A DNA stretch of 32,578 bases from a virus. The notes beneath the pieces are model-generated. The model worked only from the letters and a program-made list of their open reading frames with translations. It had not been told where the DNA came from and searched no databases. Below, piece after piece: positions 10,916 through 15,875 of this stretch. The DNA lies in IMG/VR virus record IMGVR_UViG_3300030331_000786, positions 1-32,578 of that record; one strand, 5' to 3'. How positions within the stretch are numbered: position 1 is the stretch's first letter; each line of letters opens with the position of its first letter. The translations under genes were made by a program, and so were the position numbers.

Positions 10916-10973
10916 CTGCCAGCAACCGGATGCGGCTGGCAGTCTTTGCCCCAGATTTTCTGGGGCTTTTTTT
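10916..10973 (+). terminator. Tandem hairpins with intrinsic terminator
   Basis: First, a perfect 8-bp stem CTGCCAGC / GCTGGCAG (10916-10942). Then GCCCCAG-atttt-CTGGGGC (10948-10966) followed by seven T residues. The second is a textbook Rho-independent terminator after the SSB-like gene. The next gene's ribosome binding site starts right after the T-run, so any expression of it needs readthrough or a local promoter. Confidence 0.88.
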
Positions 10974-10984
10974 AAGGAGAAACC

Positions 10985-11230
10985 ATGTCTGACGATTACT
11001 TGTACTACCGCGACCTTTTCAACATCTTCAAGGTTTACACCACCCCTAAGCTCAAGCGTGTTCTGGAAGCCAACGGCATCCCTTACCGCCAGGATGGCAA
11101 GGGTAAACCGTTCTGTTCACGATCTGCTATCGAGGGCGAGGCCACTGATAACGTCAGCTTGCCAGAATCTATGGATAATATGGACAAGCTGATCAGTGAT
11201 TTCCCCACCAGCGTAACGGTTCAGGAGTGA
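10985..11230 (+). CDS. DUF4224-like small protein
   Basis: 81 residues. The segment LKRVLEANGIPYRQDGKGKP resembles DUF4224, a short phage domain ('L...GI.y..g..G.P.v.r') that often precedes a tyrosine integrase and may act as a small DNA-binding or excisionase-like protein. No integrase is present here, so it is either a remnant of a lost lysogeny module or has another job. AAGGAG lies 5 nt before the ATG, directly behind the terminator T-run. Its stop overlaps the next start as GTGA. Confidence 0.55.
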   Translation: MSDDYLYYRDLFNIFKVYTTPKLKRVLEANGIPYRQDGKGKPFCSRSAIEGEATDNVSLPESMDNMDKLISDFPTSVTVQE

Positions 11231-11364
11231 GCAACGATCGGGGCAGTTGGAAGGATCAGGTGCCTGAGTTCCTACTGCCCTTGATTCTGGTGTTTGTCAT
11301 ATCTATGGCAATTCTATCCACAGCAGATGACGTTGTGATATCTGGATTTTATTTTTTTAGATAA
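11227..11364 (+). CDS. Small single-helix membrane peptide, 45 aa
   Basis: Starts at GTG in a GTGA overlap with the previous stop, with CAGGAG just before it. The product has a short charged N-terminus (SNDRGSWKD), a membrane helix at about residues 14-31 (EFLLPLILVFVISMAIL) and a short aromatic tail. Size and topology fit a phage membrane effector, antiholin or superinfection-exclusion peptide, but no family is recognised. It is immediately followed by the three-unit structured repeat. Confidence 0.55.
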   Translation: MSNDRGSWKDQVPEFLLPLILVFVISMAILSTADDVVISGFYFFR

Positions 11365-11575
11365 GGCGCAACGATTGTATCCATCGGGACGTTGCCAACC
11401 GACCATTTAGGGATGGGAGTCCCTTGGATTCGGGAGCGGCGATTTTGTCCATCGGGACGCCGCCGACCGATCATCGGGCAAGGAGTGCCGCCCTGGACGA
11501 AACAAGACGGCGATTTTGCTCACTGGGGCGCCGCCAACCAGCCAACAGGCGAGGGGATCGCCTTGAGCTAAGAAG
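11365..11575 (+). ncRNA. Three tandem copies of a two-hairpin unit, candidate structured RNA
   Basis: Units begin near 11368, 11436 and 11507 (68 and 71 nt apart, not multiples of three). Hairpin I has stems GCAACG/CGTTGC, GCGGCG/CGCCGC and CGGCG/CGCCG, so pairing is preserved while bases change. Each has a 6-nt bulge on the 5' side (ATTGTA, ATTTTG, ATTTTG), an inner TCC/GGA or CTC/GGG stem and a tetraloop. Hairpin II stems are AGGGA/TCCCT, GGCA/TGCC and AGGCGA/TCGCCT, with purine loops TGGGAG, AGGAG and GGGGA. The strand is inferred from the loops and the upstream operon. The 77-codon frame across it is judged spurious. Confidence 0.6.
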
Positions 11576-11598
11576 AGTTTATAACACCTTTTCGTTGT

Positions 11599-11877
11599 TT
11601 AACAATCACCGTGATCCGACCAATGATAATCAGCGCCAGAAACCTCATCATCTATAAGATCCATGATGTAGTCAAAGTTTACTAGGCTGCTGATATCGAC
11701 CGGCCCTTCAGCGCCAGCGATCCGCGTTGTTACCTTTACAAGCTCACAATTCTGGGGCTCCGCGTCACCGTCACCCGCATTGATGATGTAATGAATCTGC
11801 ACATCGCAGGCCATCCAATCACAATCAAGTTCGGCTTCCAGTACATGAATGCAACCGTACAAACTAGCAACACCCAT
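11599..11877 (-). CDS. Hypothetical acidic protein, 92 aa
   Basis: Very acidic, with several Cys (DCDWMACDV) and a C-terminal HWSDHGDC that could bind metal, but no named family. ATG at 11877 has GGAGG 7 nt upstream, lying at the end of the previous gene. It is the last gene of the leftward accessory block and faces the rightward block across the structured repeat. Function unknown. Confidence 0.6.
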   Translation of the reverse strand: MGVASLYGCIHVLEAELDCDWMACDVQIHYIINAGDGDAEPQNCELVKVTTRIAGAEGPVDISSLVNFDYIMDLIDDEVSGADYHWSDHGDC

Positions 11878-15636: not shown

Positions 15637-15875
15637 ACTTGGGCGGGGGCGGTGACAACTTTAAATTTATTATTATTGTAGCCCCCCAGCCACAAAAAAA
15701 GCCAAAATGGGGATATCTCAAGTGTCTGTTACCAAAAGAAACATTAAGTGTTACCGTGTTACCTTTGGTAACAAATATTTATTTTCAAAAAAGGGTTGTA
15801 GTACTTGAATATTAATATAGGATAGGGTGGGTAGGAGGGCTTAAATGGCCTTTTAATTTTTTAAGGAGAGCTAAA
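15637..15875 (+). promoter_or_regulatory. Leader of the rightward late block with GTTACC sites
   Basis: This 239-bp stretch holds no convincing gene. GTTACC occurs at 15728 and 15750, and as a perfect palindrome GTTACC-TTT-GGTAAC at 15758-15772, a third operator type. Downstream, TTGTAG (15796) and TAGGAT (15818) spaced 16 bp make only a weak promoter candidate. An AAGGAG ribosome binding site precedes the gene at 15876. The 64-codon open frame here has no start signals. Confidence 0.5.

Follow-up and report, generated by a model that had tools for sequence, protein, structure and literature searches.

Introduction

Among the structured RNAs of phages and metagenomes, GOLLD, ROOL, HEARO and others are orphans. 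The xrRNAs of flaviviruses fold as three-way junctions in which a loop forms a pseudoknot with downstream sequence; they are found in tandem in 3' UTRs and mechanically stop Xrn1, Dxo1, and the bacterial RNase J1 (PMC5760640). HDV-like ribozymes have been found in phages (PMC10879173).

The locus studied here lies in IMG/VR virus record IMGVR_UViG_3300030331_000786, of which the whole stretch of 32,578 nucleotides was analysed (the window). The window carries tailed-phage genes, including those for a terminase, portal, head protein, primase, and DNA methyltransferase, and three tandem units sit at the junction of two gene blocks in this uncultured phage. Judged from the covariation among relatives, each unit is a compact pseudoknot of four helices, P1, P2, P3, and P4. 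Two features of xrRNAs are present when the units are read on the minus strand: a three-way junction closed by a helix (P2) and bearing two hairpins (P4 and P3), and a loop-to-downstream pseudoknot (P1, 6/6 pairs compensatory). A feature of HDV-like ribozymes, the nested double pseudoknot of P1 and P2, is present on the plus strand.

Three tandem units between two gene blocks

The region 11368-11568 contains three tandem copies of a unit of 62-63 nt, spaced by 68 and 71 nt, which bears out an earlier note on this DNA that described three repeats about 70 nt apart. The outer stems given there, CAACG/CGTTG and CGGCG/CGCCG, were both found in the units, and its second hairpin, with divergent yet complementary stems, corresponds to P4 in every unit. 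The features of the locus were as follows, with helices in plus-strand coordinates:

10985..11230, plus strand: DUF4224-like gene, 81 aa, always left of the units
11227..11365, plus strand: small rightward ORF, 45 aa, hydrophobic; stop about 3 nt before unit 1
11368..11429, likely minus strand: unit 1; P1 11368-11373/11390-11395, P2 11379-11382/11426-11429, P3 11384-11387/11399-11402, P4 within 11403-11425
11436..11498, likely minus strand: unit 2; P1 11436-11441/11458-11463, P2 11447-11450/11495-11498, P3 11452-11455/11467-11470, P4 within 11471-11494
11507..11568, likely minus strand: unit 3; P1 11507-11512/11529-11534, P2 11518-11521/11565-11568, P3 11523-11526/11538-11541, P4 within 11542-11564
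11569..11598, minus strand: spacer of 30 nt separating unit 3 from the minus-strand gene's stop codon; 9-16 nt in most relatives
11599..11877, minus strand: ORF of 92 aa without family that closes the leftward operon, its stop codon lying ahead of the units when read on the minus strand

On the likely RNA strand (minus), unit 3 comes first and unit 1 last. The parsed helices of unit 1 are 100% Watson-Crick. The terminal pair of P1 in unit 3 reads A-C on the plus strand and G-U on the minus strand.

Diverged homologues of the 92-aa gene are present in several relatives, and the 45-aa ORF is kept in L010, L013, L014, L020, L023, L028, L030, L034, and L036. Pfam DUF4224 matched 11 of 16 family members of the gene to the left; the window copy was under the cut-off. 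The predicted fold of this protein (window 10985-11230; pLDDT 71) showed a weak likeness to the DNA-binding domains of BldC, RacA, and Xis. A strong intrinsic rightward terminator at 10948-10974 (GCCCCAG..CTGGGGC-T7), kept in most relatives, ends about 10 nt upstream of the DUF4224 start codon. Expression of DUF4224 must therefore rely on read-through, antitermination, or RNA processing. Further along the window, at 15816-15830, a late-promoter-like block (TTGNNT-N16/17-TAGGATAGGG-NGGG) lies ahead of the rightward late genes, as it does in 12/12 distinct copies compared; the block with TAGGATAGGG mostly occurs once per genome.

Fold and covariation

The fold was evaluated on an alignment of 54 distinct units built purely from sequence. 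In this alignment, the structure comprising P1, P2, P3, and P4 was paired in 95.6% of cells. Compensatory double changes, affecting both sides of a pair, were found in 16 of the 18 pairs: 6/6 in P1, 4/4 in P2, 2/4 in P3, and 4/4 in P4. The covariation score was 0.376, versus 0.160 for shuffles and ≤0.12 when the strands were slid. The fold is thus kept while the letters change, and the selection for structure that the earlier note had proposed from the three copies is strongly supported by the relatives. The copies in the window scored 66.8 bits (unit 1), 75.2 bits (unit 2), and 70.3 bits (unit 3) with covariance model R2, whose training alignment includes these same sequences. By these scores the window copies are far above chance; the independent homologues with their compensatory changes are the stronger proof.

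Individual helices varied as follows. P1 was 98.5% paired and occurred as GCGGCG/CGCCGC, GCAACG/CGTTGC, GCCGCG/CGCGGC, GTCGCA/TGCGAC, GCGGTG/CACCGC, and others. P2, whose 3' partner is the tetranucleotide past the second hairpin, occurred as GUCC:GGAC, AUCC:GGAU, GCUC:GAGC, GACC:GGUC, GUCU:AGAC, and GCCU:AGGC. P3, between the loop and a CCRR motif past the outer stem, was paired in 54/54 units and covaried (UCGG:CCGA, CCGG:CCGG, CUGG:CCAG, and UUGG:CCAA). The invariant unpaired positions are two U, located in the P1-P2 junction, and one A that separates P2 from P3.

The inner stem of the earlier note (TCC/GGA) is less well supported than P2, a pairing not given in that note, in which the same 5' strand joins the GGAC past the second hairpin. 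The nested fold preferred by RNAalifold was likewise less supported than the pseudoknot fold. The minimum free energy of single units was unremarkable (z about -1) because such programs leave pseudoknots unmodelled. A protein-coding repeat, which the earlier note had named as the rival of a structured RNA, was refuted: each of the three frames is interrupted by stops in some units, so that none stays open throughout the set; the unit lengths are not divisible by three; and variation is no higher at one codon position than at another.

Read on the minus strand, the order of elements is 5'-stop codon, spacer, P2, P4 hairpin, junction, P3 hairpin, P2', an A-rich linker (NNAAU), and the second P1 strand. 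The P4 loop is pyrimidine-rich (CUCC or UCUCU). The loop of the P3 hairpin contains one strand of P1, and its pairing with the 3' flank makes the pseudoknot. A contact between the 5' end and the junction, the third feature of xrRNAs, was weakly suggested: pairing amounted to 124 versus 114.2 expected when G-U was allowed (13/1000); the corresponding value with Watson-Crick pairs only was 150/1000.

Relatives and distribution

Pattern scans of IMG/VR returned 11, then 29, then 27 DNA stretches, and 80 loci emerged when the aligned DUF4224-like genes served as the query. The covariance model located the unit in 72 of these 80 loci, on the same side each time. The remaining eight end before the position at which their nearest relatives have the unit, so that 72/72 loci with enough downstream sequence have it; the unit of L112, one of the eight, was recovered in L006. 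In total, about 75 contigs in IMG/VR, from a single uncultured phage lineage, carry the family, with one, two, or three units per contig, a variation in copy number of the kind that the earlier note had suggested looking for. From the sample numbers that these contigs bear in IMG/VR, we presume that the phages are marine.

Searches beyond the lineage were negative. Neither Rfam nor INPHARED nor the GTDB genomes gave a match to the family, and isolated phages contained no similar DNA and no relative of the neighbouring helicase or of the DUF4224 protein. In Rfam, the window had no match at the gathering cut-off, to curated xrRNA models or to others; at a relaxed E≤10 it gave sub-cut-off matches only, mostly at the unrelated terminator of 10948-10974 and none to an xrRNA family. 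Eight relatives had no Rfam match, xrRNA models included, at E≤1. A pattern scan of 85,000 bacterial and archaeal species yielded 32 matches, with P1, P2, and P3 all paired in 0/32; these are chance matches and were used as decoys for a negative control. A second consensus, with which the fold was sought beyond the lineage, recovered family members and one chance match. Based on the alignments and searches, this is a real, not previously described structured-RNA family of an uncultured tailed-phage lineage.

Several loci depart from the usual arrangement. Next to the unit, L097, L153, L132, and L019 have acquired genes in either orientation, for which the conserved flanks supply stop codons; by eye, we take the gained genes to be methyltransferase, PAPS-reductase-like, metallophosphatase-like, and nuclease-like. 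An ectopic unit of the GCAACG type (L002 209-271; L083 3589-3651) lies among rightward genes, just ahead of a frameshifted serine-recombinase-like gene. A degenerate unit (L006 900-950), lacking 2 nt of P2, follows the late promoter and precedes the first late gene. The 58-kb contig IMGVR_UViG_3300046167_000364 (L103 and L160) contains two DUF4224 loci with differing units and may be two genomes joined. Finally, in L132, L146, L102, and their relatives, a conserved non-coding block about one unit long, carrying TTRGAYAGGGTG and a repeated GTGCCAAC/GTGCCACC, lies 50-100 nt left of the unit; it is perhaps a decayed unit or an additional RNA domain.

Strand of the RNA

Mismatches and gene positions indicate that the working RNA is quite probably the minus strand. 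Read on the plus strand, mismatches in P1-P3 were A-C in 18 cells (seven lineages) and G-U in two lineages (L019 by reading). The pattern is reversed on the minus strand, with A-C in only two lineages. Such a pattern would be expected of a minus-strand RNA and is suggestive, the lineage count of 7 versus 2 being small and not significant. As a control, the rightward intrinsic terminator that precedes DUF4224 in the same loci had 14 G-U versus 1 A-C, so that the mismatch test picks the correct strand there.

Position relative to genes points in the same direction. About 35 distinct units lie 9-16 nt past a minus-strand stop codon, the stop being provided by different gene families, and this gap comes back after gene gain or loss; on the plus side, the distance to a gene ranges from 1 to >500 nt. 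The 30-nt spacer of the window is outside the usual range of the relatives. Leftward genes flank both sides of the unit in the L132, L146, and L152 groups, in L019, and at the extra copy of L008, and the placement of the degenerate L006 copy again gives a minus reading. The ectopic L002 copy is the one exception, and counts against the minus strand. The minimum free energy of P4, compared on both strands, was equivocal. We also rejected a rightward promoter driving the units: the upstream GGATAGGG motif is late-promoter-like, yet it has no -35 and is merely unit flank in both L156 and L164.

Proposed role and alternatives

We tentatively favour a reading in which this family of three-way-junction pseudoknots, probably read from the minus strand, would act as a mechanical barrier at the end of the leftward mRNA, in a 3' UTR or between genes. 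The leftward early operon would be transcribed across the units, which begin shortly past the stop codon of its last gene. The compact pseudoknot, in the 3' untranslated region or intergenic, would then form a mechanical road-block that halts exonucleases; these, once blocked, would leave the leftward mRNA with a defined and protected end, or leave a stable small RNA. Tandem copies would provide redundancy. In nearly all loci, no intrinsic terminator was found on the leftward strand from the leftward gene up to the units or over the 450 nt that follow them, which leaves the units as the one 3'-end signal visible for the leftward early operon. A simple 3' end is opposed by the L132-type relatives, in which leftward genes carry on beyond the unit.

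We regard as somewhat doubtful the possibility that the 3' UTR is cut to release a small RNA acting in trans or an RNP scaffold. The core of such an RNA would bind a phage or host protein, or its CUCC-type loop would pair with purine-rich ribosome-binding sites, and tandem copies would raise the dose. The copy number of one to three is in keeping with this, as is a loop type that stays recognizable though the stems change (GGAG or AAGAGAA on the plus strand, CUCC or UUCUCUU on the minus strand). The loop is nevertheless less conserved than the core. Also in keeping with this reading, the loci always encode a DNA-binding-like DUF4224 protein close to the units, though synteny alone may have retained it.

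The position of the pseudoknot, 9-16 nt past a stop codon in most relatives and with leftward genes directly downstream in some, would also suit a cis-acting regulator of translation termination or of downstream leftward genes, through recoding, reinitiation, or ligand sensing. We consider this improbable: most of the phages have no leftward gene after the units, read-through hits an in-frame stop immediately (L155 and L108, read by hand), and the tandem array is left unexplained.

We assign a similarly low probability to a DNA-level element that works as a folded single strand, such as a replication priming or recombination site. Pairs in P1-P3 are nearly all strict Watson-Crick (747/770 cells), the adjoining site gains genes of both orientations, and one ectopic copy adjoins a serine recombinase gene. 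Against these stand the interleaved pseudoknot covariation and the conserved single-stranded A and U, both typical of RNA, and the skew of mismatches to one strand; GC skew tracks gene direction and indicates no origin at the units.

It is quite improbable that the units are a new self-cleaving ribozyme whose nested double pseudoknot cuts the transcript beside P1. The P1/P2 double pseudoknot of the plus strand resembles HDV-like ribozymes, and a conserved GG stands immediately ahead of P1. The P3 hairpin that HDV-like ribozymes have between P2 and P1 is absent, however: 6-7 nt lie there, four of them in the loop helix, and an alternative TCC/GGA stem is less supported. The catalytic C, defined as the first position of J4/2 (PMC10879173), has no counterpart either, the P4-P2 junction being U, UU, CU, UC, or UA, mostly U and without an invariant C. 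Membership of the HDV-like class is ruled out by these two absences; in addition, no Rfam ribozyme matched, and the strand evidence favours the opposite strand.

The CsrB/RsmZ-like sponge for CsrA/RsmA that the earlier note had read from GGA-exposing loops is highly improbable: GGA is found in the P4 region of 43/55 distinct units on the plus strand but is missing from 12/55, including whole sub-groups, ANGGA occurs in only 6/55, the pseudoknot core is conserved over the loop, the likely RNA strand reads CUCC, and no Csr/Rsm family of Rfam matches.

Returning to the mechanical barrier, its extension to evolution is rather unlikely, namely that a lineage of DNA phages evolved tandem exonuclease-blocking RNAs of flavivirus-xrRNA topology past the stop codon of an early operon, as a case of convergent evolution. 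If the units do block nucleases, bacterial viruses would share the 3' UTR trick of flaviviruses, and the unit would offer a short natural module to stabilize bacterial RNA. Should they prove to be a ribozyme or a regulatory RNA instead, the small size and good alignment of the family make these alternatives directly testable. In either case, this is a compact fold with unusually clean covariation, present in about 75 contigs and absent from the curated families searched.

Comparison with known systems

Of the known systems, CsrB/RsmZ sponge RNAs resemble the plus strand of the units in their repeated hairpins with GGA; the units differ in having a conserved pseudoknot core and a GGA that is not conserved, and in probably being read from the opposite strand. 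GOLLD, ROOL, and HEARO are likewise structured RNAs of uncultured phages with no assigned function, but the units are far smaller, are tandem, and hold a fixed intergenic position. The HDV-like and theta ribozymes of phages, like the plus strand of the units, interleave P1 and P2 in a nested double pseudoknot, which measures about 65 nt. Unlike these ribozymes, the units have a 4-bp loop helix rather than a 2-bp P1.1 and no adjoining tRNA genes, and the strand is probably the wrong one.

Compared with flavivirus xrRNAs, the units belong to a DNA phage, have no sequence similarity and no Rfam match, and carry a 6-bp pseudoknot strand in the hairpin loop. They are at best like xrRNAs in their working and are not classed as such, nuclease resistance being putative. 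What the two have in common is a three-way junction closed by a helix, a hairpin loop paired just downstream, a frequent tandem arrangement, and a location in the 3' UTR soon past a stop codon.
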